DNA of 60,591 bases from an uncultured bacterium (GTDB lineage: Bacteria > Verrucomicrobiota > Lentisphaeria > Victivallales > UBA1829): the NCBI GenBank assembly GCA_949290385.1, contig CASERY010000118.1, positions 1-60,591 of the forward strand, read 5' to 3'. The position numbers and the translations under genes were made by a program. This document shows positions 561 to 58,968 of the stretch, piece after piece (position 1 is the stretch's first letter; every line of letters begins with the position of its first letter). The notes under the pieces were generated by a model. The model had not been told where the DNA came from. It saw nothing but the letters and a program-made list of their open reading frames with translations, and searched no databases.

Positions 561-1907
561 TTATTGTTCGTCCTGACAGACAAGTTTAATGTCTGCTTCA
601 TTTTTCCGGCCTCTGACAAGTTTTTCCGTAGTATGGAAGGTTTTTCCGTCTTTTGTTCGGATCTGGACATCATAAGTTCCGAAGAAACCACGAAGATAAT
701 TTTTTGTCTATGAATCATAGACCGAATCCTGACGGGTGCACCATTCGTTCCAAATCAGGTTCCGGAGTGTTTCATAGGCCGGTTTCGGTGTCAGATCGCG
801 ATTTAAGAGGCCGCCTTTTGAAAAGTTTTCATTTCCAAGGGCAGTATCATCTACCAGATTCCACCAGATAATGCCGTTGGTCGAGGCATGGCCAAACCAG
901 ATGCGGTACATGGCTTCTGTGACTTTACGCTGAAATTCCTGACATTCAGGGCCCAGATCTTCACGCCCGGTAATCGTGACTTCCGAAATGGTGAGAGGGA
1001 GTCCTACTTTTGAATAGATATCCAGAACGTCATTGATATATTCCGGATTAAAAAAGTATTCTCCCCACCACGGAAGCATGTCATTGACATCCGGACACCC
1101 AATATGATGGCACTGTACACCGATGCAGTCGATGCGGCGTCCTGAGTAAAGCAGCCAGTTTTCCAGCATGTTGTTCATGGAATAATAGCCGTGATGGTCG
1201 CGCCAGAGAGAGCCGTCATTGTAATTGAAACGCGTGGACTTGGGGAAATATTTTTCCGCAATGTCAAAGGCAAAGTGTCCGAAGTCTTCCGGAATAAACT
1301 GAGAAGGTGTGTTGAATGTGATTTCATTCGTTACATCCCAGTTGAAAATACGGTCCCCGTAACGTTCTGCTATTTCACGGACATGCCGTTCATAGATTCG
1401 TTTCAGGTTTTCTGTTGTATCCCGCCGGAGCCAATCCGGGTTGTGATGATCGTAAAGAAGCAGATGCCCTTTAGGTGTAATACCGTTTTCCTCGCAGAAG
1501 TCAAGAAGAAGGTCGGGCGGGGGACGGCGGTAGATTTTTTTGCTGTTCCGGTCATAGCGGGGATGGCCTTTTTCCGGTTCAAGATCTCCCCAGTAGAAGG
1601 GAATGACCATCAGGTTGAACAGCTCTTTGAAATACTTTTTGTATGTATCGTTTTCCCAGGCTTCTGAAAATTCATCAAACATAAAGCCGTTGCAGCCAAA
1701 TTCATATTCATGGCCGATTTGCCGGAAGGAAATATCGGCCTGGCCTTCATACGGGGATCCGTCTGCGTTGACAAGTCTGTAGCGCAGCATACCTTTTCGG
1801 TAAAGCTCCGGACCGTGCTCAATGCGGGCAGCGGATTCCGGGTCAGGATGGTTGATGTATTTCAGAAGTTTCGCAATGTATTCTTTTTGCTGAACTGTGC
1901 TGGACAT
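561..1907 (-). CDS. GH10 family endo-beta-1,4-xylanase-like enzyme with in-frame UAG
   Basis: This is a glycoside hydrolase family 10 protein, expected to cleave beta-1,4-xylan or a related glycan by the retaining mechanism. The acid/base Glu is in WDVTNE (residue 195) and the nucleophile Glu in TISEV (residue 309). The ATG at 1907 follows a GGAGG Shine-Dalgarno. Translated conventionally the gene would stop at TAG 708, codon 400. The same frame stays open for 48 more codons to TAA 561, and that tail (RGFFGTYDVQ) matches the C-terminal tail of the adjacent paralogue (RGFRGSYRLQ). TAG therefore almost certainly encodes an amino acid. In that alignment it lies opposite Glu of the paralogue. The full length is 448 residues. 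No signal peptide is evident. It is 11 bases downstream of the second GH10 gene, so the two form one transcript. Confidence 0.85.
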
Positions 1908-1918
1908 TGGTTCCTCCG

Positions 1919-3382
1919 TTATTTTAATTCCATACAGGATTCATGCAGTTTTCCATCGGGCCCCTCCCACTGGAGACGATAAGAACCGCGGAAGCCGCGG
2001 AATTCAATGCGTCCTTCCTTGTCTGCCTTGACCGTGGTTTTTGTCTTCCATTCCTTATGAATAAGGTCATTCAGGGCAAAGTAGGACAGTTTCGGTTCCA
2101 TATCGCGAGTGAAGAGACCGGATACAGAAGGTTCTCCCGGTGCACCACAGTCATCCACTACATTCCACCAGGTAATTCCCATCATTTTGGGAATACTGAA
2201 CCAGAGACGGTAGAGATTGCGTGCAATGACAGCCTGTATAATCTGACCGCGCTGGTCACCACCGGGGGAGGTGATTGTGATTTCAGACAGATGAATAGGC
2301 AGATTCGCTTTTGAGATACAATCCATAATGCTCCAGACATGTTCCGGAGACTGTACCGTGGATTTTCCATCGGCGATATCCAGGCATGCCTGCGGATTGA
2401 ACAAATGCATCTGAGCACCCATGATATCGATTTTGCATCCACGTTCGAGCAGACTTTGAATCAGAGCAGGATAGGAATCTGCCATATGATAGTCATTGAT
2501 GTTAAGCTTTACGTTTTCCGGGAAGGCTTCCTGTGCAACTTTGAATGATTTATATGGATAATCTCCCGGCATGAATCCGTAGGAACTTTTGCAGAAACGA
2601 GAATTTGGAATAATACAGCCGGACTCAAAGTCCTGTGCACTTTCATTGACAACATCCCAGCTGTGAATGCGTCCTTTATAACGTTCTGCAATGCGACGGA
2701 TACGCAGTTCCAGTTGTTTGTTCAATTCATCCACATATTCCGGGATCATTGCAGCGATTTCATCAGCGCTTTTTGTCATGATATTGGTTCCACAGCGGAT
2801 ATCGGTCAGCATTTGAACCAGATATTCCTTCGGGAGTTTTGCAAGGAGCCAGCGCGGATACTGCCATGTGTGATTTCCCCATGTGAGGGTGTGGCCGTGC
2901 AGACGGATACCACGACTTTCACAGAAGTCTACAACGGGATCTGTGGCGGGACGACGCCAGTGACCCTGTTTTTTGGGTTCTGGGCATTGATTCCAGAATT
3001 CTGCACTGTCGCGATATTCCCCCTCGAAACGGCATTTCCCTTCTTCCGGTTCCAGAGGATTCCAGTAGAAGGCAATCGTGGCAGAATTAAAGAGTGTGCC
3101 GTAAAGTTCCTTGTATTTCCGGTTGCGTTCATCGGTCCCGAGCTGATTGAAATTGAAAATATGGGCGCCGAAGATAAAACTGTGAGAAGTCTGTTCTACA
3201 GAGACTTCCGTTCCTTCCGGGACTCCGGGCAGGAGAATGGAGGCGTCTGCCTTTCTGTTTTTCTCAATGTCTCTGCTGATTTTTGCCTGGACATCTGCAT
3301 TCCAGAGATTGCGATATCCTTCAGACATTTGAAGAAGCTGTTCTTCTTCTGTCATGGGAGACTGTTGAAGAGAAGTATTCAT
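1919..3382 (-). CDS. GH10 family endo-beta-1,4-xylanase-like enzyme
   Basis: This is a second GH10 protein of 487 residues and a diverged paralogue of its downstream neighbour. The acid/base Glu is in SWDVVNE (residue 247) and the nucleophile Glu in HLSEITI (residue 367). It ends in TAA with the tail RGFRGSYRLQ, which serves as the reference for the readthrough tail of the first gene. The start is placed at the ATG at 3382 because AAAGGAG lies just upstream; an earlier in-frame TTG lacks such a site. No signal peptide is seen, so it may act inside the cell on imported oligosaccharides. The tandem arrangement suggests gene duplication. Confidence 0.88.
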   Translation of the reverse strand: MNTSLQQSPMTEEEQLLQMSEGYRNLWNADVQAKISRDIEKNRKADASILLPGVPEGTEVSVEQTSHSFIFGAHIFNFNQLGTDERNRKYKELYGTLFNSATIAFYWNPLEPEEGKCRFEGEYRDSAEFWNQCPEPKKQGHWRRPATDPVVDFCESRGIRLHGHTLTWGNHTWQYPRWLLAKLPKEYLVQMLTDIRCGTNIMTKSADEIAAMIPEYVDELNKQLELRIRRIAERYKGRIHSWDVVNESAQDFESGCIIPNSRFCKSSYGFMPGDYPYKSFKVAQEAFPENVKLNINDYHMADSYPALIQSLLERGCKIDIMGAQMHLFNPQACLDIADGKSTVQSPEHVWSIMDCISKANLPIHLSEITITSPGGDQRGQIIQAVIARNLYRLWFSIPKMMGITWWNVVDDCGAPGEPSVSGLFTRDMEPKLSYFALNDLIHKEWKTKTTVKADKEGRIEFRGFRGSYRLQWEGPDGKLHESCMELK

Positions 3383-3430
3383 CTGTACTCCTTTTAGATA
3401 GGTGATTGAATTGAAACAAAAATTCACAAA

Positions 3431-3448
3431 TTATTCATATTTGAATAA
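3431..3448. promoter_or_regulatory. Palindrome upstream of the GH10 pair, candidate operator
   Basis: A perfect inverted repeat, TTATTCA-TATT-TGAATAA, lies about 50 bases upstream of the GH10 start codon. Its position and symmetry suit a dimeric regulator. The regulator is unknown and AT-rich DNA makes chance palindromes likely. Confidence 0.35.
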
Positions 3449-3817
3449 TCATTGTTATTATTTGAACTTTAACCAATAACCATATCCTTCATTTTATAAA
3501 TAACAACCTTCTTTCATTTTTTTTCATGATTTTTTTTGAGCTTTCTGCAAAAACATCGGAAATGAAACTGAAGCATGGGCTTGGTATTGGTATTGTGTCG
3601 AAATATGGACCGGCGAAGATGAAAAGAGGAAGTTGAACAAGGGAAGTAAAGATTAAGTAGTAAAGTTGTTGATTTATCTTGAGACTGGTTGCTGGTCGTA
3701 TTTTTGGATCGAATGCTTATTTCATACACTTGTTTCGTGATTCTTCAGCGAGAATTGTTTTTGCCACGTGAATATTATCCTTTGGAATAGTCATGAGAAA
3801 AAAATTTCAGAAAACAT

Positions 3818-3845
3818 TTGCATTTTTCAAAAGGAGAAGTATATT
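3818..3845 (+). promoter_or_regulatory. Sigma-70-type promoter of the tRNA gene
   Basis: TTGCAT and TATATT are separated by 16 bases, and the second element ends 13 bases before the 5' end of the tRNA. The match is good although the first hexamer is not perfect. Confidence 0.5.
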
Positions 3846-3858
3846 TGCTCCTATTGAG

Positions 3859-3938: not shown

Positions 3939-3955
3939 TTTTTTTTCGATTTTCC

Positions 3956-11507: not shown

Positions 11508-12671
11508 ATGAAAATTACAAAAATTGAACCGATACTAGTCGGTGCTCCTACTCCGGGAACGGGCCTGCTTTCGAACCGCAATTATATTTTCATTAAAGTT
11601 CACACAGACGAAGGAATCACCGGACTTGGAGAGGCTACGCTGGAAAGTCATGACCATGCCGTTCTCGGAACACTCAAGGATCTCGAATGTCTTATTCTTG
11701 GAGAGGATCCGCTGCGCATTGAATTCTTGACACAGAAAATGGTCAGACAGCTTTTCTGGAAGGGCGGGGTCATCAAAGGTTCTGCCATTGCCGGCGTGGA
11801 ACTAGCTCTGTGGGATATTCTTGGAAAGTCCGTGGGACAGCCTGTGTACAAACTGCTGGGCGGTGCATGTCGCAGTAAAATACGTGTCTACGTCAATGGC
11901 TGGAGCGGTGGTTCTCTGGATCCTGCTGTTGTTCGAGAAAAAGCTCAGATGGCTATGGCGGCGGGATATGATGCCTTTAAATTCAGTCTTGCACTCCCTG
12001 TCTGGAATGTCAATGATCCGGTCAATCTCCGGAAAATAGAAAAAGTTTCAGAGACAATTCGTGAAACAGTCGGACCGGATGCTTTGCTTATGTATGATGG
12101 ACACGGACGTTACGATGCGGATCTTGCCATTCGCATTGGACATATTTTGGAACCGTTTGATTTCACCTTTTTTGAGGAACCCTGTCAGCCGGAGGATGAG
12201 GAGGGACTTTCAAAAGTGGCGTCTCGTATTCATATCCCTGTAGCAACAGGAGAACGGCTTTCATTTCTGCCGGAATTCAAGCGCCTTCTGACGCGCGGCT
12301 GTGCAAGCATTGTCCAGCCGGATCTCGGACACTGCTGCGGATTCAGTACGGCTCTGAAAGTTTCGCATTTGGCAGAGGCTTTCAATGCTTTTATTGCACC
12401 GCATGGTCCCATGAGTCCTGTCATTACTGCAATTTCTCTTCATTTGGATTCGATTATTCCAAACTTTCTTATCCAGGAGCGTCTGTTTCTCAACGACTGG
12501 CGCAATGAGGTCATTACGGAACCGATTAAAGTTGAAGACGGTTATGTTACGCTCAGCGGCAAGCCGGGCTGGGGAATAGAACTCAATGACGATGTCTGCA
12601 GGGCACATCCGGCGGAAAAGCCTTACACGCCGCAAATGTATCGTCCGGATGGCGCAGTCTGTGATTGGTGA
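11508..12671 (+). CDS. Enolase-superfamily sugar-acid dehydratase, D-galactonate dehydratase-like
   Basis: The 387-residue protein has the mandelate racemase/muconate lactonizing fold. Metal ligands are visible at Asp197 (MYDGHG), Glu223/224 (FFEEP) and Glu249 (ATGER), with the paired catalytic His199 and His299 (APHGP) typical of D-galactonate dehydratase. It would convert galactonate or a similar aldonate to a 2-keto-3-deoxy acid. That product is the kind of substrate handled by the aldolase encoded 0.9 kb downstream. Anhydrogalactonate cycloisomerases also belong to this superfamily and cannot be excluded. It stops in TGA. Confidence 0.8.
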   Translation: MKITKIEPILVGAPTPGTGLLSNRNYIFIKVHTDEGITGLGEATLESHDHAVLGTLKDLECLILGEDPLRIEFLTQKMVRQLFWKGGVIKGSAIAGVELALWDILGKSVGQPVYKLLGGACRSKIRVYVNGWSGGSLDPAVVREKAQMAMAAGYDAFKFSLALPVWNVNDPVNLRKIEKVSETIRETVGPDALLMYDGHGRYDADLAIRIGHILEPFDFTFFEEPCQPEDEEGLSKVASRIHIPVATGERLSFLPEFKRLLTRGCASIVQPDLGHCCGFSTALKVSHLAEAFNAFIAPHGPMSPVITAISLHLDSIIPNFLIQERLFLNDWRNEVITEPIKVEDGYVTLSGKPGWGIELNDDVCRAHPAEKPYTPQMYRPDGAVCDW

Positions 12672-12688
12672 CTGAAAGGCAGGTGAAC

Positions 12689-13417
12689 ATGAATGAATTT
12701 ACAGGAAGGACCGCATTGGTTACCGGTGGTTCACGTGGACTTGGAGAAGCGTTCTGCCGTCTGCTTGCGGCAGAGGGCTGTCGTGTTATTGTGAACTATG
12801 CTCATGGCAAGGAGGCGGCGGAAGCCGTGGCAAAGGAGATTGGCGGAATCGCAGTTCCGTGCGATATTTCCGACGAACACAGTGTTCAAAAGATGTTTCA
12901 GGAAATTGGACCGGTTGCCATTCTGATCAACAACGCACGGGTCGATCCGTACAAGCGAGACTCGGAAATGTCCGACGGTGAGTGGTGAGGCTACGTTATG
13001 GGTGTCAACCTTAAAGGAGCCTATCTCTGTGGAAAATTCGCATTGGAAGATATGAAGAAGGCTCGCTGGGGACGCATGCTGCATATTTCGTCGCTGTGGG
13101 CGTATCAGCCGGCAAATGAGAGAATGCTTTCGTATGCTTCTGCAAAATCAGCCATGCATGCATTGAGCCGCGGATTTGCAAATCTGGGAGCACCTTACGG
13201 CATTACCTCGAATGTTCTTGCTCCCGGTTTGATTATGACAAAGTTGGTCAGTTCGCGTCTTACGCCGGAAATGCTCAAGAAGGAAGAGGCGGGGATTCCG
13301 CTTGGACGTGGAGCATCTCCGGAGGAAATTGCGAAGTCAGGACTGGATTTGCTGCATGCAAACTTCATTACAGGTGAAATTGTCAATATTAACGGTGGTG
13401 CATTCATGCGTCCGTGA
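12689..13417 (+). pseudogene. SDR family oxidoreductase interrupted by in-frame TGA
   Basis: This is a short-chain dehydrogenase of 242 codons. It has the NAD(P)-binding VTGGSRGLGEAF motif at the N-terminus, the catalytic Ser in ISSLW and the SYASAK active-site Tyr and Lys. An in-frame TGA at 12986-12988 splits it between GEW and GYVMGVNLKG. TGA ends about 20 other genes here, so this is either a true nonsense mutation or a sequence error. The NNAG motif of the family reads NNAR. The frame is otherwise clean. In its setting it would oxidise or reduce a sugar or sugar acid of the locus. The start is the ATG at 12689, after AAGGCAGG. Confidence 0.7.
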
Positions 13418-14202: not shown

Positions 14203-15837
14203 ATGAAACTGAACGTCAAATTCCTCAGTTCACTGGAAAAAGTCTTCTGCGAACCGGAACTCAATGCAAAACCACTGGAAAATCTCACCGCTCTACGCGG
14301 AGAGACGCTTTCATTTCAGATTGCGCTGAATTCAGAACGCTGCAGTGCACCCGTCTGGGATGTTGCTGAAACCGGACTTCCGCCGGTACAGATTCGGGAA
14401 GCGGCTGTAGTGCCGTGCCTGATGCCGGCTGTCCGGGAAGATCCGTATACCCTTCGAACAACTGCGGGATTGTATCCGGATCCGCTGGTCCCGCTGCCCG
14501 GACGGATTCGTTTGACACCTGGAAATTGGCATTCGCTCTGGATTACTGTCCGTATTCCTGTTGATTATACTCCGGGCAAATATGAATTCCGTGTCCGTTT
14601 TAAAAACGATACAGAGCTCTACTGGGGGGAGTATGATGATGACTGCGAATATAGGCTGCCAGTCGAAATTCTTTCACCTGTTCTCCCGGAACAGACTCTA
14701 AGCAATCTCAACTGGTTTTATGCGGACTGCATTTCTGAATATTACAAAGTTCCCTGCTGGAGTGAACATCATTGGGGACTTATGGAAAAGTATTTCCGCA
14801 ATATGACGGAACACGGGATCACCCATCTGTTCACGCCGCTCTGGAGTGTTCCGCTGGACACGGCAATTGGTGGAGAACGGCCAACCGCACAGTTGCTGAT
14901 CATTTCCTGCCGGGATGGGAAATACTCTTTTGATTTTTCTCTTCTGAAGCGCTGGATTGACACCGCCCGGCGTGCCGGATTTTCCCGTCTGGAAATGTCG
15001 CACGTATTTACTCAGTGGGGGGCATCAGCCACTCCGAAGATCATTGTCAACGGAGAAAAACGCTTCGGCTGGCATGTCAAGGCGGACTCCGCGGAATACC
15101 GTGAGTTCCTGGAACAGCTTTTTCCACCGCTGCTTGATTTCCTCAGAGGAGAAGGTCTGGAAGGAAAATGTCTGTTCCATGTTTCCGATGAACCATCCGA
15201 TGCTCAGTTGGAGAGCTATGCTTATGCCTCAAATCTGTTGAAACGTCTGCTTCATGGAAAATACACGGTTGTCGATGCCCTTTCCCATGTTGACTTTTTC
15301 CGGAACGGGCTTATTGCCACTCCGATTCCTGTTACAAATGCTCTGGATGAGTTTATGAAGGAAAATATCCGGGAACGCTGGGTGTATTACTGCGGAAACT
15401 GGGAAGACGGCGTACCCAACCGTCAGTTCGGCATGCCGTCTGCACGCAACCGGATTATGGGAATTCTCCTTTTCGTCTATAACCTTGACGGATTCCTTAA
15501 CTGGGGGTATAATTTCTGGTTCCGAAGTTTCTCCAGAGGTCTGCTGGATCCGTGGAAGGAAACGGAGGCGGGCAGAACATTCCGGGGCGGCGGTTCTTTC
15601 AATGTTTATCCAGGAGAAAATGGACCTGTCGATTCAATCCATTATGAAGTGTTTCACGAGGCACTGCAGGATCTGCGGGCGCTCCGTGCACTGGAGTAGA
15701 AAATCGGACGTCAGGAAGTTATGTGCATTTTGATGGATGGCCTGACAGAACCTCTTACTATGCGTACATATCCGCGTTCTGCCGACTGGATTCTGAAAAT
15801 ACGGGAGAAAATCAACCGCCGTTTGGCATGTGCATGA
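14203..15837 (+). CDS. DUF4091 glycosidase-like protein with in-frame UAG
   Basis: The protein has 544 residues if TAG at 15697 (codon 499) is read as an amino acid. DUF4091 proteins are related to GH123-type glycosidases; the region with HVSDEPSD around residue 330 is a likely catalytic Asp/Glu site. TAG lies in the conserved C-terminal segment: LRALE before it and KIGRQEV, then YPRSADWIL after it, which together read as the usual DUF4091 ending. The frame then stops at TGA 15835. A conventional stop at TAG would remove 45 conserved residues. No signal peptide is seen. It is the last gene of the locus, 24 bases after the aldolase. Confidence 0.8.
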
Positions 15838-16929: not shown

Positions 16930-19177
16930 ATGTATTATTTCATACTATGTCTGCTTGTCATATCTGTTTAGCTGCCTACCAACACAAACACCGAGTATAA
17001 GGAAATTGAGGAGGATTTAATTGTACACGACGATTCTTTCTTTGATTTTATAGCCTGCGATTCCTTTTTTGATTTTCAGGAGATACACAGTGAAAAAGAC
17101 AAAATTGAACGGATGCGTGAATATCTGAACGCAGATCTCAAGTCTCTTTATCCGGATACGGATGAAACCGTATGGAAACCTCTGGTGGATCAGCTTGTGA
17201 ATGACTTCAATGAACAGCCTCTTCCGCTTGATGCTTCTGCATTTCCTGAATCAGCACAGGATCTTGTAAAGGCATGGAACGAATACTGCGGAGTGGTATA
17301 TTACAAATCATCTCCAGCTCTGGAAAAATGGTATTCAACCAAAAAAGGTGCACTGTTTTTGAAGATGCGTTTTGCCACATTGCGTTATGTCAGTCCTAAT
17401 GCCGATGCAGGACCTGAAGTAAATGCGCGGAATAAAACATTGCTTGATCTCGCAAAAGCATATAAAGATGATCCTGTCGTTTCGAGAATAATTTATCTTT
17501 TCGCAAATGAAACGAACGAATCTACCTTTCCCTTTCTTGAGAAGCATGCGGAGAACTTGGATCCATGGCTCAAGGAAATGATACTTGGACGTAATTTTCT
17601 TGCTGCCGCATGGGACGAACGGGGTGGCGGTTATGCCGGTAGCGTGACTGAGGAAGGGTGGATTGGCTTTAAGGAGAATCTGATACAGGCGAAGAAACAT
17701 TTTGAAGCGGCACATCAAATACAAAGCAGTTTTTCAGAAGCTGCCAGCCAGATGGTTGAACTTTCCGTTATTTGCAGTGAGGTCCCGGATAATGAGTACT
17801 GGCTGAAAACAGCACTTGAGCGGGAAATTGACTCAAATACTGCAATCTATAACTATGCTTGGTACCATCTTCCCCGGTGGTGTGGTTCAACGAATGGACT
17901 TCTTAATTTTGCAGAGGCTTTGATCCGGAATCACAAACCTGGTACAAAAATGGCTTTGCGCGGACTGCGCGTGATAGATGTAGCACTTGCCTATGGCTGT
18001 GGCGGATATCAGAACGCCATGACAATACTCAAAGATCGTCCGGAAATGTACGATTCTTTGAAAAAAGCCTTTGAGCAGATGCGCAAAGATAAGATAACAG
18101 ATTCTTCCTTCAGTGATTTATATATGCTTGAGGCATAGGTTGCATTGCTGTTCGGTCGTTATGACGATGTTGCATCCGCTCTGCAGAATGCTGATGAAGA
18201 ACTCTACTACCATATTTATGATATACGCGGATATAGCTCCAGAGATTTTATTTTCTCATGGATCAATGTTCCGGCATTTGCTCATGCATTTACCGGGAAG
18301 CATGAGGAAGATTTCAAGAAAGTAATTTCTCTATGGAAAAAGTCCCCGGAAGAAAGTGATGCCATTTTGGATTCGCTCATTAACAGAAGAGACAACAAAC
18401 CAGGAGAAACTGGCCGCTATTTCTCTCTGGGTCAGACCGAAAATGCCTGTTGATGCTCAGTTCGTTTATGAAGTCGGAGGAGATCTTCTGACCCGGTCTA
18501 TGGTTGCTGGAAATGCCTATTGTTTCAGAACCATGAGCATGTATCTTCCTGTTATTAAAAAATTCATTGAATACAGTAAGAAAGCCGGTATTGCTGACAA
18601 AGGTGCTTTAGCACCTTATCAGACACCTTTGCAATATGCTCTGCTAAATGAAACGGAAACAGGACGTGAAACTGCTAAACTTCTGCTGGCGGCTGGTGCT
18701 GATCCTGAATATAAGGAAGCAGCGCTTGGACGTACCCCATTATGGTATGCAATCCGCAGTGGAGAGCCTGAAAATCTTCAACTGATCCTTAATGAAAATG
18801 TGGAACTCAATCTTCTGGATAATCTCGGCTATACGGCACTTGCATACGCAGTTGCAGACAATACAGAAAAACAGCATGAACTGGTGAAAATGCTCATTGA
18901 AGCCGGAGCAGATCCGAACTTAACAGCTCCGGATACGAATCCGCCATTGATCTTTGCTGCGGATCAGCATGATATTCCCCTTGTTGAATATATGATTGAA
19001 CATGGAGCAGATCCGAATATAAAAGATATGCATGGATTGACAATGATGGATTATGGCCTGATTCATAAGTATCAGCCCCTTATAGATTTTTGCCGTGAAC
19101 ACGGGATTGCGGCGGCAAAAACAGAAGATCCTGGCAGTGTAACAACAGATGTATCAGGCACTGCAGATGAAAAATGA
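16930..19177 (+). CDS. Exported ankyrin-repeat protein with two in-frame UAG codons and a frameshift
   Basis: The ATG at 16930 follows AAAAGGAGG and opens a signal peptide (MYYFILCLLVISV). TAG 16969 (codon 14) lies at the end of the hydrophobic core, and TAG 18136 (codon 403) lies between LEA and VALLFGRYDDV. The frame is otherwise continuous to about 18395. There it must shift by one base, probably one extra A in the AACAAACC stretch, to continue as QEKLAAISLW. The last 220 residues form about five ankyrin repeats (GADPEYKE, GRTPLWYA, GADPNL, GADPNIKD), a protein-contact fold. It ends at TGA. Target and role are unknown. The UAG codons fit the window-wide pattern; the frameshift is real damage, a sequence error, or programmed. 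Confidence 0.65.
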
Positions 19178-19340: not shown

Positions 19341-20251
19341 TTTCTGTTTTATTTGTTACATCCTTTTTATTGATCGAAATCAGTCTCTTCGGTCCAAGAT
19401 AAAATATCCAGATAACTTATTAGCAAAAAATTGCAGAATATTGATCTTGCAGAATATAATATTCAGTTAATGCTATCTTTCCGGATATTTTCCAGTAGAT
19501 TGTAGAAAATATTTTACAGATCTTTTCCCTTCTGGGAAAAGATGATCCAAAAAGGTTTGGAAAAGGAAGAGCGCGAGAAGGAAATAACCTTTCCTCAAAA
19601 GGTTTTTCTTTCTCGCATCAACATTTCTTTTTTTCTCGCAAATAGAAATAATCAATCTATTCTTTCTCCCCCAAAAATTTCTCCATTGAGTCAGCAACCT
19701 TCTTAAAAAGCATGCGTTATCTTTTCCCTCCTGGGAAAAGATGATTCAAAAAGGTTTGGAAAAGGAAGAGCGCGAGAAGGAAATAACCTTTCCTCAAAAG
19801 GTTTTTCTTTCTCGCATTAATATTTCTTTTTTTCCCTTAAAAAATTCTCTTTTCTCGCATATGATCATAACGCATTTGTTAAAATTTTTTCTTCCCTGCG
19901 TGGATGAAGTTTTTTCAGCCACCTTGCATTTGGAGTTTTCTTTTGTGAACGAAATAAAATCTTTATGAGAGAAGGGGCTGATTTTTTGAATGATGTTTTT
20001 ATAAGAAGAATTGTATATTCCGGAGAAGAACTTATATTCCTTTTTAGAGATGCTGCATCCTGACTATTTCTTCATTGGAATGACCCGCTGAAAAGCTGGA
20101 TGATGGAAAGATGAGGGAAGGTGGTTGGGGAAAATATGAATCTTATATATTGAGAAAGAGTCTGCCGTATTTTTATACCATTTCTTTTCATGGGATGCAA
20201 AGGCGGCAAGATCATTTTCAGAAAAATGCAAAAATCAATAAGGAAGGAAGA
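19341..20251. other. Intergenic region with direct repeat G
   Basis: No supported gene is seen. The region holds the two copies of repeat G and AT-rich sequence. Short frames across the repeats have low-complexity sequence and no ribosome site. Confidence 0.5.
19520..19833. repeat. Direct repeat G, about 110 bases in two copies
   Basis: A block of about 110 bases beginning ATCTTTTCCC at 19520 recurs at 19719 with few differences. Each copy starts with a perfect 10-bp hairpin (ATCTTTTCCC with GGGAAAAGAT) and contains a second inverted repeat around AACCTTTCCTCAAAAGGTT. It could be a small non-autonomous element or a duplicated structured RNA. I see no transposase. Confidence 0.75.
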
Positions 20252-20692
20252 ATGACTATGAAACTTTTTCTCTACATCATTTCTCTGATTTGTATTGCTT
20301 TTTCAGAGATTCAAGCATCTGAAAATGCGTCGGAGTCTGCGGTTGTACCGAAATACCAGTTGAGCACCCATATTTTGGATACAAATCTGGGGTGTCCGGC
20401 ATCTGATGTGCCGATTGTTCTCTTTCGTCTGGCGGAGGATGGAGAAACCTGGAACAAAGTCGATGAGGGCATTACGGACAGCAATGGCAGAATTGCTTCC
20501 TTTTTATCTGCATAGCGGGAAAATGATGGTATTTATAAACTGAAGTTTGAGACGAAAGATTATTTCAGGAAACAGAATCTGGATTCTATTTATCCATTTA
20601 TTGAGGTTATTTTTGAAATCAAAGGCACAAGTCATTACCATATTCCTATTACGATGTCGGCAAATGGATATGGGACTTATCGGGGAAACTGA
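20252..20692 (+). CDS. hiuH: 5-hydroxyisourate hydrolase (transthyretin-like), exported, with in-frame UAG
   Basis: The protein has 146 residues if TAG 20513 (codon 88) is sense. HIU hydrolase converts 5-hydroxyisourate to OHCU in urate breakdown. The N-terminal part has a signal peptide (MTMKLFLYII...SEIQA) and the family motif LSTHILDTNLGCPASDV with its active-site His. After TAG come DYFRKQNLDSIYPFIEV, HYHIPI and the C-terminal YRGN, which corresponds to the family's YRGS catalytic ending. A stop at TAG would remove the active-site tail. In a mental alignment with the E. coli enzyme the TAG falls in a surface loop opposite Gln. It stops in TGA. No other urate genes are nearby. Confidence 0.85.
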
Positions 20693-25056: not shown

Positions 25057-25887
25057 ATGCCGTCTCCACAGGCCCATACACTGGAAGAACACCGTGATTA
25101 TTTGTATAAGATAGTCAGACTGAAACTCTTTTTTCTCCATAAATGGCTGTCCGAACATCCGGAAGAAAAGTTTACAGATGCAATCCGGAACCGAGTGGAT
25201 ATTTACCGGAAAACAGATGCAAATCCAGGTCCTATGACTCCGTCCGTCTGCTATTTTGATGCCCCTGCATGGAAAACGATGGAGGATGAAGCAGAGGCAC
25301 TTTACCGGCGTTATCAGAACGATAGCGATAGAGCTGTTTTTGAGGATAAGGCTTTTGAAGTCTTCCGGCCTTCCATTGATGCACGCTGTGAACGGGATTA
25401 TCTGGATGTATCCAGTCTTGCTGCTTATCAATGCGGCAGCCTGCGTTATGACACGGCTCTGCAGCAGGATGGAAAAACAGTAGGGTTTCACATATCCAAT
25501 GCTGTTGCTCCCCATTCGATCTTTTCAAACCCGTATTATCTTCCGGCATGTTTTGAGTGCCTGATGAGAGAGACCGAAATAAAGATGGGGGCAGAGCGAA
25601 TTTCCTCATGGACATGGCTGAATTCATACCCTCGCTGGCTTGCATTTTTTCCGAAGGAATGGCAGGATAATCTCAGCGAGGAAAAACGGAATGTTTAGTG
25701 GCATTATGCTTTCTGGGGTCAGTTTATTTCCGCCCGTCATACGTTCAATGAAAAGTATGGGGAATATCTGCGGCGTACCGGATGTCTGCCTTTTTACCCG
25801 CGCAGTTCAAGCTGTTCGATGAAGGAAATGAGAAAATTCCTGAAGTCGTTTACCGAAAAACTGGATGCTGAACAGAATCTGCAGTAA
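25057..25887 (+). CDS. Uncharacterised protein with in-frame UAG
   Basis: The protein has 276 residues when TAG 25696 (codon 214) is read as sense. I do not recognise the family. It is soluble, rich in Trp and Tyr near the C-terminus, with conserved-looking blocks SSWTWLNSYPRWLAFFP before TAG and WHYAFWGQFISARHTFNEKYG just after it. The character of the protein is the same on both sides and the frame closes at TAA 25885, so a single protein is likely. GAGGAT precedes the ATG. It stands alone between genes on the opposite strand. Confidence 0.65.
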
Positions 25888-28847: not shown

Positions 28848-29621
28848 TCAAAGACCTGTTGGGAAATCAATAAATTCCGTTTCCAGGTTAAAATGCTCCC
28901 GTAAGGTATTCATCACGGCAATAACGCCAGGTGTTTCCGAACGGTAATGGCCCAGGGTCAGGATATGAATGCCCGTTTCGAGAGAAGGATGGTATACTTC
29001 ATGAGGGGCCTCCCCTGTAATCAGACATTCAATTTCGGAAGAACCCATTTGATCAAAAAGTTCAGGCCACGCACCTCCGCCTGAGATAATGCCGATGTTG
29101 GAAACTTTTGCATCGGGATCCCCAAGAATGCTGAAATTTCCTTCGGAAGGAAGTTCCTTATCCAGCGTCTAGGCAATTTTTTTAATGCTTTCCGGTTTTT
29201 CAAGATTCCCTTGAAATCCAATATGATAGCCATGGTAAAGACCAAACGGCTTCAGGTTTTCCAGCGAAATCATATTGGCAAGAAGGGCATTGTGGCCGAT
29301 CATGTCGTTTGCATCCAGAGGCAGATGAGCTGCATAGAGAGACATGCCGTTTGCAGCAAGGACTGTCAGACGTCTTGCCAGAGTTCCTGTGATGCGTTGA
29401 ATCCCGTTTCCCCAGCTGATGCCGTGATGGACAAAAATGAAATCGGCATCCAGATCTGCCGCTGACTGGAAAACTGCTTCACAGGCATCTACGGCAAAGA
29501 CTGCCTTGCGCACTTCATTAACCCCTTGGAATTGAAGCCCGTTATTGGATGGATCCCGGGGATATTGATTTAAATCGAGAATGTCATCGAGAAAGGTGCA
29601 GATTTCTTTTAGGGATGCCAT
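28848..29621 (-). CDS. Nif3-like dinuclear metal-centre protein with in-frame UAG
   Basis: The protein has 257 residues, a normal size for the family without the extra domain, when TAG 29169 (codon 151) is read as sense. The N-terminal half shows the metal-binding FVHHGISWG and the DANDMIGHNALLA segment. The C-terminal half after TAG has GIISGGGAW, ECLITGEAPHEVYH and GHYRSETPG, the conserved second metal site. Both halves are needed for the bimetal centre, so a stop at TAG would be inactivating. The gene starts at an ATG after GGAGG, 18 bases beyond the metalloprotease gene, and ends in TGA. Confidence 0.85.
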
Positions 29622-29639: not shown

Positions 29640-30638
29640 TTAGAGTGACGGGTAAACGGGCAAATTGTGTGATTGCTGTTGACTGTTTTGTGCCTGTGAA
29701 TGTGCCGGCATGGAAAACATTTCTTCCGGCAGAAATCTCAGAGCGATAATGTTCCAGCGAAGTTCCTCCTGAATTTTTCTCTGAATCCATTGCCGGAGTT
29801 TTTCCTTTTTCAGGGATGCGATGCGGCGAATTTCATCCATGCTGCACCGAAACAGAATGGCTTCAGGCTGCCGGACGGATATTTCTTTCAAGTTTTTTTC
29901 TGCACGGAAATAGCGGTTTCTGGCAAGCTGATTGCGTATCAGCAGAAAAGCCGGATAGATCAGTACCAGAATGAAAAAAGGCCAGAGCGGCAGCTGAAGA
30001 AATTGAAAAGAAATAAGAAATTCCATGATGAGAAGCAGTATAACCGGCTATAGAAATAGAAGGGCATCAAGTTCGGTTCTGAAACAGTTTCCCATGTATC
30101 TGCGGAGAGCACTCTTGGCTGTGGCATAAGCAAAATGCTCTTCCAGTTCACAGTCCTGGAACACACTTCTGGCTGCGTGGCAGAGTTCATGTGCCAGAAG
30201 TTCATCCCGGTCGTACAGGAACCAGTGCCGCTTGTTTTTAAAACCTTTCCGAATAAAAAAGAGTTGCAGACCTTTGTCGTCAGTAACAGTGCATCCGCCC
30301 CAGAGCATGCCGAGTCCTTTGGTAAGGAAAAATCCTGGAACCCAATTGATTGTGAATCCATACAGTTTTTCAGTCACAAGAGCTGCTTCCTGAATAATTT
30401 CAGGAGTGATTGGTGTCCCGCGTCCGACTGGGAAACCTGCAGCCTCAGACAAATTTTTCCCATTCTGAATTTTTTGAAGAAGGTGCCGGTATCCAGCCGC
30501 TTCATTAAGAAGACGTTTTTTGTATTCATCCAGATTTTCCCCGGGGGCGAAAAAGAGTCCTTGCCTGTCCATATTGCAGAGCAGATCGGTCCGGCTTGTC
30601 TGTAGGGATTCAATTTCTTTGGCAGATGGAAAACTCAT
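29640..30638 (-). CDS. Zinc metalloprotease-like membrane protein with in-frame UAG
   Basis: The protein has 332 residues when TAG 30048 (codon 197) is sense. Residues 150-154 are HELCH, a zincin HExxH motif, with a possible third ligand Glu in EEHFAY. TAG follows LDALLFL and precedes PVILLLIMEFL. Next come two hydrophobic segments (LPLWPFFILVLIYPAFLLI) and a basic helical C-terminus. The join makes an inner-membrane protein with its protease domain ahead of the membrane anchor. Conventionally read, the second part would be a separate small gene lacking a ribosome site. It forms an operon with Nif3 (18-base gap). The substrate is unknown. Confidence 0.72.
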
Positions 30639-36468: not shown

Positions 36469-38424
36469 TCAGATCTTGAACTCTACTGTAGCAAGTTCCA
36501 GCGGAGGAACGGTAACGGTTCCTGTAATGACTTTCCCATGAATCCGGACAGTCCAGTCACCGGTTTGTTCCAGATTGGTCAGATTGGCCAGAAGTCCCAG
36601 TGCTTTGCTGCCTTTCCAGTAGAGGGACATGCCGACTTCCCGGCTGCCTGTCCAGGTAATGCCTTCTCCAGGTGCGGAATGGCGGGTATAATGTGTCAGG
36701 GAGTTCAGCAACTTTTTATGGCTGTCATAAAAATCCAGAACGGCAGAATCATCTGAACAAAGTGTTGCATGGTGCAACAGTGCCGCCAGCGCCAGAGCGC
36801 GGAGCGTTTCCCCGGAAGCATTGGGGATCATGACACAGATGGAACGTGGTGCAATATTCAGAAAATGCACATGAGGCGTAAACATTTCCGGGAAGATTTC
36901 CGAATATTCGCTTTCCTCTGTAAGGACCATATTGGCCATGTTTTCCTAGGCGAAATTGGGAACATTGGTCAGATGAAGATAGAGTTTTCCTGCATCCCCG
37001 GCTTTTTTCCTGCTCCATTCCAGCAGATCCAGCAGTTTATCATTGTCCCAGTGCCGTTTGCCGCCGTTATGGGCGGGATTGATGCATTCGAGACCCATGC
37101 ACCAGTCGTAGTACAGGCCCTTGAACGCATGATGGTTGAGGGCCTTTTCAATGGTGGATCTGCGTGTTTTGTACCAGTCGCTTTCGAGGCACATCTGCAT
37201 GCCGAAGAGGCTTGTTCCAAAGAAGTTTTCCATGAGTTTCTCATGGGGAATAACCTGCCTTGCAAACCGTTCTGCATCTTTCTTGAACCCGGCAGTGTCA
37301 GGATGGTATTCCTTGACAGAAAAATAGGGAACCACTGCAATGTCCGCCTTTTCTGCGGCCTGAAGGGCCTGGTCCATCTTTTTCATTTCCTCTGCGGGGT
37401 AGGGCGGATAATCGGTATCTCGCCAAAAGATTCCGTTGCCGTATAAATCGCCGTCGTTATGAAGACGGAGCATTCCCACATGCTTATGTTTGAGTTCCTT
37501 CAGCCAAGCGTAATCCGGCCATCGGGTTTCAAATCCGGGACGCAGAAATGTTGATGCGATTTCCAGCGGAACGATATTCTTCCGGACGTAAGGCAGAGCA
37601 AGTCGATAGGTGAACTTGTGACTTCCTTTGGGGATAATATTGCCTGCACGGGGTGAATCAAGGGGAGAAAAGACAACTTCATATGCGTTGATTTTCACGG
37701 CTTCGCAGACGGATCCCTGCTGAAGACCCGGAACCTCTGTTCCAAGACCGTCCCAGGCTCCAAGATCGTCCCCCATAGACATTTCGATTCCTTCCACACC
37801 TGTCTGGATGAGCATTACAGACAGAGGTAGGAATCGGGAACGATAGGCAGGAAGGTCACTTCTGGATTTCCCGTGTTTCAGTTCAACCCACTGGCAGGGA
37901 TTCTGCAGTTCCACGGCCCAGCTGGATTCGGCACAGGGACGGACTGCAAGCTGATTCATATCATTGCGGATATCCAGTGTACCGATTCGTACGTGGCCGA
38001 TGTCCAGATCCTGTGCGAACTGCAGTTCCACGCAGTGTTCAGCAGCACCGGATGCACGGTACAGGACAGAATGCAGAACTTTGACATCTTGGAGTATTTC
38101 TCCCTTTTCATCTGCCAGACCGGAGGAGAAGTCCAGTCGGACAGTATCGTTTTTCCGGGAGATTTTAATTTCTCCATCGGTATGTGCATAAATCGTTTCG
38201 TAATAGTGGTATTGCCTCCATCCCCCGCGCACCCAGGGACAGACTGCCGTGGACTGGGGGCGGACCAGCAGATTTTTCCCGCTTCCGTTTTTTACAGAGG
38301 CTGCGCAGAGTTCACCGCCGTGCGCAGAATCGTGGATCCACTGAACAAAATCATTTTCTACAATGACTTGTCCACCCTTCCGGGATACCTGCAGGGCAGG
38401 TGTTTCACTGATGAATTCTGTCAT
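36469..38424 (-). CDS. Large glycosidase-like protein with in-frame UAG
   Basis: The protein has 651 residues when TAG 36946 (codon 493) is sense. I do not recognise a named family. An N-terminal beta-sandwich region is followed by a likely barrel with LRLHNDGDLYG, AVVPYFSVKEYHP and LYYDWCMGLEC, which resembles alpha-galactosidase-like or DUF6259-like glycosidases with a possible catalytic Asp in YYDW. TAG lies between LTNVPNFA and ENMANMVLTEES. The part after it continues with barrel-end and C-terminal beta-domain sequence (GITWTGSREVGMSLYW) up to TGA. AAGGAAAC precedes the ATG. No signal peptide is seen. Confidence 0.7.
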
Positions 38425-40584: not shown

Positions 40585-41685
40585 TTACATCTTGGCAATT
40601 TTTCGAAGATACAATGCACCGAAAAGCTGGTACAGCAATGGCGGAATCCACACAACATACTGCGGATAAAGTTCCGGCCGCTGACTCAAGGCATCAGAAA
40701 TTAAAACTCCGCCGAAATAGATCCCAGCCAGAAGCACGCTCAGAAAAAGCCCGACAGAAGTTTCTCTGCGGGATGTGCGGATGGCCATGGGCATTCCAAG
40801 AAGCATAAATGCAATTGGAGCCAGAGCCAGGGCTACACGCTGATTCATTTCTGTTTCCAGGGGAGTGGTGTCAATCCCTCTGCGCTTCTGAATGATGGAA
40901 CGGGCAAAAATTTCTTTGGCGGTCAGATATTTGTCTCTTCTGGAAACCACCTGGGCATTGAAACTTTTTCCATATTCAAAGGTGGATCGAAACTCATTGG
41001 AGGAGACATTGACATTCTGGTCCTTGCTGCCGGCCTGATTTTCACTGCTTGTGATGATGGCATCGTAAAGGGTAATCGTCATAAGCTGCGACTCCTGATC
41101 TGTTGACACTTTTCCGCGGGAGGCCGTGATATCCTGTTCAATATTGCCCCGGTTGTCGAATTTGTAGATCTGAATGTCATACAGATTTCCGTCCTCATCC
41201 TTGGAATCAAATAGGATGCTGAGCTGTTCAAGTTCCACAGGAACTCCCGGCGTAAACAGAGCCATCGGATGATGCACGGCCACCTCTTTAAGCATAGATC
41301 TGGCCTTGCCCATGGCTCTGGGTCCGACTTCCATCTGCAGATACATGCAGATACAGGAAAAAAGAAAAGTCGTTACAATAATAGGCTACACAATCTGCAG
41401 AATGGATACGCCGCATGCTCGCATGGCGGTAATTTCGTTGTCTGCCGACATTCTGCCAAAAACCAGCATAATTGCTACCAGCGAAGCCCAGGGGACTGTA
41501 AAAGAAAACGCCTGAGGCAGTGTATAAAGAAGAAATTCCAGCACGGCAGAAACAGGAATTCCTTTGGATAAATGTTCAAATACTTTCATAAGCTGTGCGC
41601 CAGTCATACCGAAGGTCAGAATGGCGATTGCCATAACAAAAGTAATTAAAAAGCTTTTTGTAACATAAAAATTTAATGTTTTCAT
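40585..41685 (-). CDS. lptF: LPS export permease LptF/LptG family with in-frame UAG
   Basis: The protein has 366 residues when TAG 41386 (codon 100) is sense, a normal length for the LptF/LptG family. These permeases move lipopolysaccharide from the inner membrane to the periplasmic bridge together with LptB. The first 99 codons hold the first membrane helices and the family segment FGRMSADNEITAMRACGVSILQIV. TAG follows, then PIIVTTFLFSCICMYLQ, the periplasmic jellyroll and the last three helices ending near LGMPMAIRTSRRETSVG. The position after the helix is variable in the family (often Arg, Leu or Ala). LptF is normally essential, so a true stop here is hard to reconcile with viability. It ends in TAA. 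Confidence 0.85.
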
Positions 41686-43182: not shown

Positions 43183-43568
43183 TTTGGCTTTTTTCATACA
43201 AGGAAAATCCTGCTGGCATTCACATCCTGTGAGGAGGGTATCGTACGAAAAGATTTCCGGCTGAACATTTTTCCCTGAAGAAGGTGAGAAAAGCTTTTGT
43301 TCTGCCGGATTTTTCAGAAGCAGGTCTTTTCCCTGAAACAGACCCAGGTTATTCAGAACAGGGAAGACGGATGATTTCCGGTATTGGTTTTCTGCCTGTT
43401 CATTATAGAATCTAGTGAAATTCCGCAAAACTCCAGACGCGTGCTATAAAAAAATACACAGAATGGATTTTGCGGATTTTCGGCGTCATAACTGCAGAAT
43501 AGATTTCCCGGCTGCAGCAGGAAGGCGGCTGAGACGGGTTTCTGCCAAGTAGAGAAGGAGTGCGTGGT
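43183..43568. other. Intergenic stretch before the CorA gene
   Basis: No supported gene or clear terminator is seen in about 385 bases. Confidence 0.4.
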
Positions 43569-44498
43569 ATGCTGCACGAATACTCAGTTATCGACGGACG
43601 TATTACCCGAGGCACCGGCGGATCGCCGGCTGTTGATATTTATGTCCTTCCGAATGAAGAAGAACGTTTTCATCTGATCCATGACCTGGAGATTGATGAA
43701 CATACCCTGGCGTCTTCCATAGACCCGGATGAAACCCCTCGAATAGAATTTGAGGATACGTATACTGCCATTATCTTGAAATATCCGAAAAATTACTCTG
43801 CGGATGACAATTTTCTTTTCCGTGTAAAATCCATGGGTATTTTCATGTTTTCCGACCGAGTGGTTATTGTGGTGGATGACAATGTGCAGCTGTTTATGGG
43901 AAAAATTGCCTCCAATGTCTATACCCCGCAGGATGTGATTTTAAAAGCTCTTCTGCAGACAATCCGTCATTTTGAAAGCCATCTGCGCGTGATTAATATG
44001 TGCAGTGATGAAATTGAAACAGAAATCAATGAATCCAAGGACAATAAGAGCCTCCTGAACATGTTTACTCTGGAGAAGGGCCTGGTGTATTATGTAAATG
44101 CGCTCAGCGGGAACCGTCGGGTCATCGACCGTGTCCGCACCAGTTCCAGAAAACTGGGACTGACAGAGGAAAATATTGAACTCCTGGATGACCTTCAAAT
44201 TGAAAACCATCAGTTTCTGGACCAGGCACAGGTTTACCTGCAAGTGCTCAGCGGACTGATGGAAGCCCGCGCTTCGATTATCAACAACAATTTAAATGTG
44301 ATGATGAAAAATATGAGCGCGATGGCTATAGCTGTTGCTGTGCCTACATTTGTCACAGGGGTTTTCGGCATGTCTGAACTGACTCTTATTGTTGGAGGTG
44401 AGACTTACTGGTACGTTGTTTACCCTGTTTTCCTGATCTGCATGTAGATTCTCGGTTTCCTGACATTCTGGATTATTATGAAAAAAGAACGTCATTAA
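43569..44498 (+). CDS. CorA-like magnesium transporter with in-frame UAG
   Basis: The protein has 309 residues when TAG 44445 (codon 293) is sense. It has the CorA layout: a long acidic and helical N-terminal part, TM1 ending in VTGVFGMSEL and TM2 starting in WYVVYPVFLICM. The family's GMN signature reads GMS here, so ion selectivity may be altered. TAG falls in the middle of TM2; the frame continues ILGFLTFWIIMKKERH, which completes the helix and the basic cytoplasmic tail before TAA. Ending at TAG would leave half a membrane helix. The ATG at 43569 follows AGAAGGAG. Confidence 0.82.
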
Positions 44499-56026: not shown

Positions 56027-56090
56027 TTGTGGAGCCTGGATGGATTTAGGTTACAAGAACAAAAACAGAGAAACAGAGAAATTACAGAGT

Positions 56091-56999: not shown

Positions 57000-57246
57000 A
57001 AAAATTTTTGTATTTTACCCGTATTGGATACATTGCAAGGAAGATTTGTACAAACCTTCCTTTTTTATTTTTGTTCCGGGTGGAAAAAAACTTGAAAAAA
57101 TACTGGAATGAAGTTTATAATATGAATGAGGGATATAAACAGGGTGTATTGTATTTGCCGGATCTGCATTTATTAAGACGATGATCCTTGGAGAATAATG
57201 TCTGCCTGCAGACTTGAAGATGGCGGACGAGGAGGAAGAGACAGAA

Positions 57247-58968
57247 ATGTATTTAGTGCTTGCGTTGCTTTTCACCATGCTGTTTGTGATGACGCTGCTT
57301 TCCATGGACATGAGTTATTCCACCATGGAAGAGGCATCTTTGTGGCTGGTTGGGTTCGGCCTTCTGCTAGCGATCGGAATTGTGAGCGTGAAATGGTATC
57401 TGTTTATTAAAAGACGGAGACTTTTTAAATCCATGGCAATGAACATCCTGATGGCCAAGTTGTTCCCGGAGAAGGTCCGGAAGGAAAATGAGAAGGAGAA
57501 TGTTTCTCAAAGAATTCATTCTTATGAAATGCGCCGCTTGAACTCCGTTCAGGAAGTGCTCAGACTCCTTCAAACTGAAAAGCAATGTGTAAAACTCTGG
57601 CGTTCCTTTGCGCAGGCTCATGAAGGCTTTGAAGTGATTGAGGATAAAACAGGACTTCATGGCATTCGGGGTTATCTTGACCATGTGCAGTTTCAGATTC
57701 TCAGAACGAAGCGCGGAGCTGTTACCTATCTTTATCTTTTTCAGAATCCTCTGAATCTTCATCTGGTGATCGGCCGAAACTATACTGGTGAAATTCCGGA
57801 TGACGGAGTCTACTTGGATCCGAAAGTTTATTTTCAGGAAGACCGCAGTGTCCTGATAGCCGTAAAAAGCAAAGCGGATTTTGAGCATTATCTGAAAAGT
57901 GAAATCCGCATTACATTGCAGTGGATTCTGGACCATTATGAAACGGTGGCTGTAACTGATTTCATGCTGAAAATTGAAGATGACAAATCTTTGAACAATG
58001 CGCCATCCATGGATATTCTCCGCCAGGGGTGTCTGGTGGCTTCTATCGTGGGAAAGAACGAGCCGGATGTGCTTCCGGATATTTCCCCTGATTCCCGGAT
58101 TGGAGAACGTCCTGAGCCTGCCAAGGGAACCAGCGTTTTTAAATAGACTGGCGAAGACTATCATTCTCCCTGGGGGGCTGGGAGACGAACTTCTGAAAAG
58201 AGAATAATTTCTATTTTTAAAAATCCCTTTTCCAAGGGAAAAAGGTCTGATGCTTCTCCGTCTGATCTTGATGAGGCATCGGCAAAAAATTTGGCAGCTC
58301 CATCCTTTGCAGGGGTGAAATCTGCAGATCCTCTTTCAGAGGCAAAAGAAGCCATTCATTTCACCGCTTCGGATACCAATCATGCAATACAGGATACGTC
58401 ACAGGATCCGGACCCGAAAGATGTTCCTTCTGAGGCCGAGGCTGCAAAGAAACTGGGAGAATCCGCTTCTGATTCAGAACAGACTGTTCCTTCATGGGAG
58501 GATGGCACGGATTTAAAGAATCTGCTTGAAAGTCCCGGTTTTATCAAGGATTCCGGAACTGTTTTAGCGGCAAAACTCTTTTCCAATCATCCCGGGAAAG
58601 AACCTCTTCAGAAAATTCAAGGGAGCAAGGTGCATTGGAAAGGAATTCTGAAGAACAGTTATATGTATCTTTCAGACTTTTATTTCAGATCGGGAAGCGG
58701 AAGCAAGGCTTTCTTTGAAATTGCCCAGGTGGAATCTGGACCTTTCGGAACAAAATGTCCATGTTTTGCCGTGGTTTCTTTCCCGAAAGAATGCAGTGAA
58801 TATCTTCAGAAGAATATCGGCAGGATTTTTGAATTCGCCGGAACTATTGTAAAAGTTAAAACATTTTCTCGTGAGATTTATCTTCAGGATGGTGCATTTA
58901 TCCTGTGCAGGGATGGAGACACCAGTTTCATCTCCGAGATAGAAGTGCCGGACAAGGAAAACAGATAA
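57247..58968 (+). CDS. Membrane protein with two domains joined at an in-frame UAG
   Basis: The protein has 573 residues if TAG 58144 (codon 300) is sense. Two N-terminal membrane helices (MYLVLALLFTMLFVMTLL and LVGFGLLLAIGIVSV) are followed by a cytoplasmic domain of about 230 residues without a known family. TAG lies after GTSVFK in a likely flexible linker; the frame continues through an acidic Ser/Asp-rich linker to a C-terminal beta-rich domain (RIFEFAGTIVKVKTFSREIYLQ) that may be OB-like. The second part has no ATG or ribosome site near its beginning, which supports one protein. AGGAGG precedes the ATG at 57247. It ends in TAA. Confidence 0.62.

Follow-up and report, generated by a model that had tools for sequence, protein, structure and literature searches.

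Probable loss of release factor 1 and capture of the stop codon UAG as alanine in an uncultured bacterium of the Victivallales

The stretch of DNA analysed here (the window) is contig CASERY010000118.1, or C118 in our numbering, a sequence of 60,591 nucleotides from the metagenome-assembled genome GCA_949290385.1 (G000) of an uncultured bacterium of the Lentisphaeria (Victivallales, UBA1829), and its genes raise the question of whether the codon UAG still means stop in this organism. An original prediction, made from the letters of the window alone, had held that TAG is a sense codon there and had left the amino acid undecided. We followed this up in the whole G000 assembly (2.68 Mb in 168 contigs, 78% complete and 2% contaminated) and in a family set of 36 genomes including G000, in which no second genome belongs to the genus of G000. 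The reading that we favour is that the organism has lost release factor 1 (RF1) and that UAG has been captured as alanine; the steps of this reading are not independent of each other, and we regard their combination as likely.

The window was scanned with TAG as a sense codon for near-non-overlapping open reading frames (ORFs) of at least 100 amino acids. This yielded 47 ORFs, 24 of which end in TAA and 23 in TGA, with 19 internal TAGs spread over 17 of them, compared to 136 internal stops in 38 ORFs if TGA is taken as sense instead, and 87 internal stops, likewise in 38 ORFs, if TAA is. All 12 TAG codons listed by the original prediction are in-frame TAGs of this ORF set; the remaining seven belong to ORFs that are shorter or extended at the N terminus and are possibly not genes. 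That no gene ends in TAG, on which that prediction had also relied, holds true of the window set as well, but it carries little weight alone, given that TAG rarely serves as a stop in G008, the nearest relative in the comparison. A Pfam scan covered ten of the 11 genes with listed TAGs, that is, all except a 312-codon forward-strand ORF from the ORF scan (43560..44498, TAG at 44445). In three of the ten proteins a domain bridges the TAG: a hydroxyisourate hydrolase-like protein of the transthyretin family (20111..20692, forward strand; TAG at 20513-20515, residue 135; Transthyretin/HIUase domain at residues 84-192), a NIF3/DUF34 protein (28848..29621, reverse strand; TAG at 29169-29171, residue 151; domain at residues 3-252) and an LptF/LptG-like permease (40585..41685, reverse strand; TAG at 41386-41388, residue 100, likely alanine; LptF_LptG domain at residues 7-361). 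For the other seven, the TAG lies outside the domain match or Pfam gave no match over the cut-off. Of the 40 other genomes searched, 33 have a homolog of the NIF3 gene, and none of these homologs has an internal stop.

For the rest of the genome, 633 kb of G000 were compared with 1.56 Mb of G008 in three parallel scans that each tolerated a single stop codon (TAG, TGA or TAA), restricted to genes with at least 50% or at least 40% identity to G008; a stricter variant added a local-identity filter. At the 50% threshold, we detected 25 TAGs in 17 of 88 genes (31,268 codons), three TGAs in two of 91 genes and one TAA in one of 90 genes, and these three TGAs and the single TAA lie, as judged by eye, among the first 35 aligned residues, ahead of the start methionine. 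Addition of the local-identity filter left 19 TAGs on ten contigs and neither TGA nor TAA, in agreement with the earlier argument that random decay would hit all three stops; one of the 19, in L138, is doubtful, as its ORF may be spurious. Without the filter and at the 40% threshold, we counted 38 TAGs in 27 of 129 genes, 24 TGAs in 15 of 131 and four TAAs in four of 131, the TGA and TAA cases being antisense-type frames or leaders by eye. Identity to G008 continues across the TAG, with means of 0.548 before and 0.516 after it (36 sites, Wilcoxon p 0.18). The genes concerned include those for SecY, RuvA, MreB, RecJ, RecN, alanyl-tRNA synthetase, an RNase II-type protein, an RND transporter and release factor 2 (RF2), and in the RND transporter a single ACR_tran match (1009 bits) runs through six TAGs. 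Altogether, TAG accounts for about 0.08% of the aligned codons; extrapolated to the whole assembly, several hundred TAG codons would be expected.

The ends of genes give the complementary picture. In 95 conserved genes the alignment extends to at most 10 residues short of the C-terminus of the homolog; their first stop is TGA in 48 cases, TAA in 43 and TAG in four. Two of these four TAGs are followed by a TGA 2-3 codons later, and the other two are located 34-36 codons downstream of where the alignment ends, such that 0 of the 95 genes rely on TAG alone to stop near the homologous end. UAG is no longer needed as a terminator in G000. In G008, 45 of 1137 closed ORFs terminate with TAG, as does one of 95 conserved genes. 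At L103 (contig C19) and L100 (contig C16) of G000, a TAG stands at the homologous end with a TGA 2-3 codons on, as if an old TAG stop were now backed up. With in-frame TAGs in conserved genes, and with none of these 95 genes dependent on TAG alone to end, UAG is almost certainly a sense codon in G000.

A codon freed in this way raises the question of which release factors the organism has. In the 78%-complete assembly no RF1 was found, and the family model PF00472 detects only RF2 and a 193-amino-acid RF-H-like protein. Of the 36 family genomes, 33 have a full-length RF1, which exceeds the cut-off in 32 of them and scores 415.8 bits in the other, G001; the three genomes without it are G000 and G016 (72% complete), which have none, and G034 (69% complete), which has a piece. 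Over family and order together, RF1 exceeds the cut-off in 56 of 61 genomes, G000 counted. The lack of an RF1 match in G016, which belongs to the genus of G008, is probably due to incompleteness, and a second loss is possible. RF2 is present in G000, with a TIGR00020 match of 394 bits on the 220-amino-acid C-terminal part, over the cut-off. Its gene (L045, 4416-5510) has a TAG of its own, at codon 42, and the alignment with solved RF2 chains continues across this codon; no other RF2 among those listed for the family genomes has an internal TAG. The RF2 gene runs in one frame from methionine to its end and has no internal UGA frameshift site. The RF-H-like protein (L046, 5577-6155, contig C30) is short and carries a GGQ motif, and similar short matches occur in most family genomes.

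The place where prfA, the gene for RF1, would be expected is preserved in G000. Within the order, rpmE precedes prfA in nine of ten loci (L047-L056), and within the family it does so in four of five (L281-L284), G008 being the exception; an orthologous ABC transporter gene follows prfA in two of the five family loci (G018 and G008). On G000 contig C43 (L040), rpmE (Ribosomal_L31, 944-1144) is followed from about position 1550 by the ortholog of this ABC gene (54% identical), and the gap of about 400 bp between the two contains neither RF1, for which about 1,080 bp would be required, nor a recognisable relic of it (best RF1 similarity E 0.54). This rpmE-ABC junction without prfA has the appearance to be expected if prfA was lost from its native position. 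The prfA locus is rearranged in the nearest relative too: in G008, prfA comes after a type III glutamine synthetase gene, the end of which it overlaps (L198, 9259-14329), and rpmE is elsewhere (L204). In G000, the 67 bp left between the ortholog of that synthetase gene (glnN) and the contig end contain no RF1 start. We conclude that RF1 has very probably been lost in G000. The check proposed with the original prediction, that RF1 should be missing while RF2 is present, thus came out as expected, with RF1 found neither in the 78%-complete assembly nor at its usual place between rpmE and the ABC gene, and the claim that UAG is sense genome-wide, as opposed to decay or site-specific recoding, is backed by the sampled rest of the genome together with the missing RF1.

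As to the amino acid, a Codetta-like pairwise inference against the one relative G008 gave no decisive answer and was replaced by profiles of homologs. In this pairwise comparison, a background model scored 1.4 better than glutamine at 28 sites, followed by serine, alanine and lysine, and at 19 sites glutamine came first with the background 2.4 worse; in the control of the method, sense codons subsampled to equal size were decoded correctly in 1218 of 1220 cases. We took the pairwise result to reflect the location of TAG at variable positions and therefore turned to homolog profiles with controls consisting of entropy-matched sets of sense-codon sites. The profiles covered 16 TAG sites in seven proteins, namely six in the RND transporter, two in an ABC transporter, three and two in two SPFH proteins, and one each in alanyl-tRNA synthetase, LptF and NIF3. 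Over these sites the log-likelihoods were -29.9 for alanine, -41.2 for serine, -50.5 for glutamate, -52.2 for threonine, -56.0 for glutamine and -57.4 for lysine. Control sets scoring as low as the TAG sites amounted to 6.1% for alanine and 0.5% for serine, and to 0 of 1000 each for threonine, glutamine, glutamate, lysine, asparagine, glycine and proline. Alanine occurs among the homologs at all 16 sites, compared to 8.7 expected and matched by 0 of 2000 random sets, and its score was reached in 0 of 2000 sets each of random sites, of codons one step from TAG and of glutamine/tyrosine/lysine mixtures.

The single sites differ in character. Small residues prevail at RND 692 (Ala 31, Thr 6), RND 748 (Ala 25, Ser 11, Gly 1) and SPFH 217 (Ser 18, Ala 4, Pro 4, Cys 2, Thr 1), and at the LptF site, where alanine stands in 60 and serine in 59 of the 120 matches listed, the remaining one being the window's own fragment, which does not reach the site. 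With the LptF protein of the window, 11 loci at 48-52% identity were found, several of them from rumen. At the NIF3 site, the 27 homologs have mostly lysine (9) and glutamate (7). Outside the profile set, PDB alignments at RecJ, MreB, RF2, SecY and RuvA were read by eye and kept out of the likelihood; in RuvA, alanine is found in all three displayed chains that reach the site, and in RecN the TAG site lies outside the coverage of the PDB alignment. The profiles thereby narrow what had been left undecided to alanine as the best fit, and the residue at UAG is, as far as comparison of homologs can tell, probably alanine.

Several observations weigh against alanine or against the loss of RF1. The profile sites are few and six of the 16 lie in one RND transporter; without this gene, alanine leads serine by 1.4 units only (14-site set), and the lead of alanine over its runner-up is matched in 0.65% of random sense sets and 0.75% of hydrophilic-plus-small sets. 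The five added PDB-read sites (RuvA, RecJ, SecY, MreB and RF2) are mostly polar, with chains showing Arg and Ala in RecJ, Arg, Arg, Lys and Lys plus Gly in an engineered chain in SecY, Gln, Gln and Arg in MreB, and Asp and Asp in RF2; these polar sites keep serine, glutamine and a mixture in play as less probable readings, and because of them our confidence in the joint reading was lowered slightly. At nine strict pairwise sites that the profile set does not contain, the residues are three Gln, two Ala and one each of Lys, Arg, Ser and Asn (the doubtful Trp omitted), the pairwise comparison with G008 prefers glutamine over alanine by 4.4 log units at 28 sites and by 6.0 at 19, and a pairwise model with free identity did not discriminate among amino acids. 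With 78% completeness, RF1 could in principle sit elsewhere in the genome unseen; a copy in the missing fifth would terminate at the in-frame TAGs. Finally, no CUA anticodon was found among the 46 tRNA hits of the 78%-complete assembly (47 at E up to 10). ARAGORN read the anticodons of 45 of the 46, and the remaining one, cut at a contig start, is a tRNA-Glu by eye; the single weaker hit, the 47th, falls in the tmRNA gene, and a loosened ARAGORN run on G000 returned noise only. Five of the 30 anticodons of the G008 sample are absent from G000 (Ser GCT, CGA and GGA, Arg CCG and Ala CGC), and therefore a single-copy tRNA has about a one-in-six chance of being missed. The original prediction would have been refuted by a normal RF1 gene, the lack of a CUA tRNA and many conserved genes ending in TAG. 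Of these, the lack of the tRNA applies, in an assembly that is incomplete, but RF1 is missing, and TAG ends are either lacking or backed up by a second stop. As a separate observation on the tRNA genes, a pair of tRNA-Gly(TCC) and tRNA-Tyr(GTA) occurs on two G000 contigs, C5 and C158.

Which other readings could account for these data? Neither alanyl- nor seryl-tRNA synthetase recognises the anticodon, which makes alanine and serine the easiest captures, and TCG is one mutation away from TAG. UAG might hence be read as serine by a tRNA-Ser(CUA), in keeping with the even division of the LptF site (60 Ala and 59 Ser of 119 among the matches listed), with serine in the nearest LptF homolog P0051 and in one of the ABC sister proteins described below, with an SPFH site at which 18 of 29 homologs have serine, and with the three Ser tRNAs of the G008 sample that are missing from G000, so that a Ser-type CUA tRNA could be missing too. 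We consider this unlikely, as serine is 11.3 log units behind alanine over the 16 sites, 0.5% of serine control sets fit as badly, and alanine beats serine by that margin in 0 of 1000 of them. Glutamine, the meaning of UAG in phage code 15 and in many eukaryotes, tops the one-relative comparison, can arise by one mutation from CAG to TAG and stands opposite TAG in RuvA, RecJ, alanyl-tRNA synthetase and a permease of G008; at the 16 profile sites it lies 26 log units behind alanine, 0 of 1000 glutamine control sets score as low, and it occurs in no homolog of the sets at the small-residue sites (RND 692 and 748, LptF, SPFH 217), which makes it a very improbable assignment. Alternatively, RF1 may have been lost without a dedicated tRNA, with UAG decoded ambiguously by near-cognate tRNAs, or as a mixture such as alanine plus glutamine, and tolerated at insensitive sites. 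The missing CUA tRNA would fit this, as would the higher variability of the TAG sites (mean entropy 1.32 compared to 0.82 on average) and their mixed nature, some with small residues and others polar; an alanine-plus-glutamine model scores -25.1 compared to -25.8 for alanine alone (14-site set), with 9% of such sets reaching the alanine score, and in a recoded E. coli that lacks RF1, the residues inserted at UAG are Gln, Tyr, Asp and Val (PMC6207430). Glutamine/tyrosine/lysine and random mixtures reach the alanine score in 0 of 2000 sets each, and TAG occurs within essential-type genes (SecY, MreB, alanyl-tRNA synthetase, RF2, RuvA), wherefore we hold ambiguous reading to be quite unlikely.

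The remaining two explanations dispense with a general capture by a canonical amino acid. Pyrrolysine users read UAG as an amino acid, and the rarity of TAG would suit pyrrolysine or another noncanonical residue, as the original prediction had suggested. Yet no PylS over the cut-off was found in G000: the C-terminal PylS model gives 20.2 bits compared to a cut-off of 178, and 12 of 14 control genomes also match below the cut-off; pylB, pylC and pylD were not searched for. The TAG sites are moreover generic ones in ordinary housekeeping genes, and the suggestion appears extremely improbable. The same low credence applies to the view that the TAGs are products of pseudogene decay, sequencing error or contamination and that RF1 is merely missing from the bin. 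A draft metagenome-assembled genome with 78% completeness and 2% contamination invites this view, but decay or error would also have put TGA and TAA into the coding part of genes, where the filtered counts are 19, 0 and 0; identity continues past the TAGs, which are distributed over ten contigs, and the neighbours of prfA are joined without it.

The reading that RF1 was lost and UAG captured as alanine would imply the following order of events. TAG would have become a very rare stop in the family, and prfA would then have been deleted, a loss that would be tolerable because RF2 terminates the remaining TAA and TGA genes. A variant of tRNA-Ala, with the predicted anticodon CUA, would subsequently have captured the freed codon, which would be easy because alanyl-tRNA synthetase ignores the anticodon. 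The rarity of TAG, at about 0.08%, would fit a young capture. Protein records suggest that sister species may share the code. For the ABC transporter, the nearest two by identity among 120 matches listed, P0278 (84%, from a 13-kb contig) and P0284 (81%), start at a methionine 6 and 7 residues past the first TAG position and have alanine and serine, respectively, at the second; P0051, the nearest LptF homolog (72%), begins at an internal methionine 12 residues upstream of the TAG position, at which it has serine. Such starts hint at in-frame stops in the sister species too, with contig edges as another possible cause, since these are protein records only. On balance, we lean towards a whole genus of Lentisphaeria without RF1 that reads UAG as alanine, which would be without precedent in bacteria both as a general reassignment of UAG and as a capture of a stop codon by alanine, and young enough for the scar of the prfA deletion still to be readable.

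The other TAG-bearing genes of the window are less informative. A GH10-like gene (561..1907, reverse strand) has its TAG at 708-710, residue 400, beyond the domain match, and a GH123-like gene (14203..15837, forward strand) at 15697-15699, residue 499, just beyond it; in a DUF6259-like gene (36469..38424, reverse strand) the TAG at 36946 is likewise beyond the domain match. A 507-codon ORF (16930..18453, forward strand) with TAGs at 16969 and 18136 has a DUF4034 match below the cut-off. No Pfam match was obtained for a 276-codon ORF (25057..25887, forward strand; TAG at 25696), a 332-codon ORF (29640..30638, reverse strand; TAG at 30048) and a 584-codon ORF (57214..58968, forward strand; TAG at 58144). 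At 12665-13417 of the window, one gene is broken by a TGA at 12986 and followed by another ORF, according to the earlier reading.

Among known codes, the closest parallel is that of Hydrodictyaceae/Neochloris mitochondria (PMC6821328), in which the stop codon UAG was likewise reassigned to alanine and was scarce in relatives before its capture. The same scarcity is found here in one relative, G008. These mitochondria have a tRNA-Ala(CUA) and a changed, still present mtRF1a, whereas G000 represents a bacterial chromosome (assembly of 2.7 Mb) that lacks RF1 and has RF2 remaining for termination, with no CUA tRNA detected in the 78%-complete assembly. In bacteria, the stop changes known at the time of PMC8629427 all concerned UGA (UGA=Trp and UGA=Gly), to which that study adds five changes of arginine codons; there, too, a stop is captured as sense and the matching release factor can be lost, as exemplified by the absence of PrfB (RF2) from Ca. 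Organicella (PMC8204192), but those codes concern UGA and RF2 and the present one UAG and RF1. Phage code 15 (PMC9523058, PMC10879173) also makes UAG a sense codon, but it is used by phages and specifies glutamine, which does not fit the profiles, and the case of G000 is chromosomal. The recoded E. coli of PMC6207430 shares with G000 the absence of RF1 and a freed UAG; it is engineered, with UAG unassigned, whereas the lineage of G000 is natural and appears to have filled the codon, and the pattern in G000 differs from the insertion of Gln, Tyr, Asp and Val in that strain. In the titles and abstract beginnings of the open-access literature, with most subscription papers and preprints outside this search, we found no reassignment of UAG in a bacterium and none in Lentisphaeria or Victivallales, and UAG=Ala is known in this literature from green-algal mitochondria only. 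Stop-codon reassignment is a known kind of change; UAG=Ala in a bacterium would be new to the literature covered by this search.

A practical consequence is that proteins of this lineage are mis-annotated because databases cut its genes at TAG; the window's own LptF stands there as a piece of 242 amino acids. If our reading is true, the other release factor, RF1, would be dispensable too in a natural bacterium, and a genome of ordinary size could cross this step once UAG has become rare. The organism would then be a natural counterpart to the engineered E. coli without RF1, and the order of events, from a rare stop through the loss of RF1 to the capture by a tRNA, would become testable in the genomes of its sister species.

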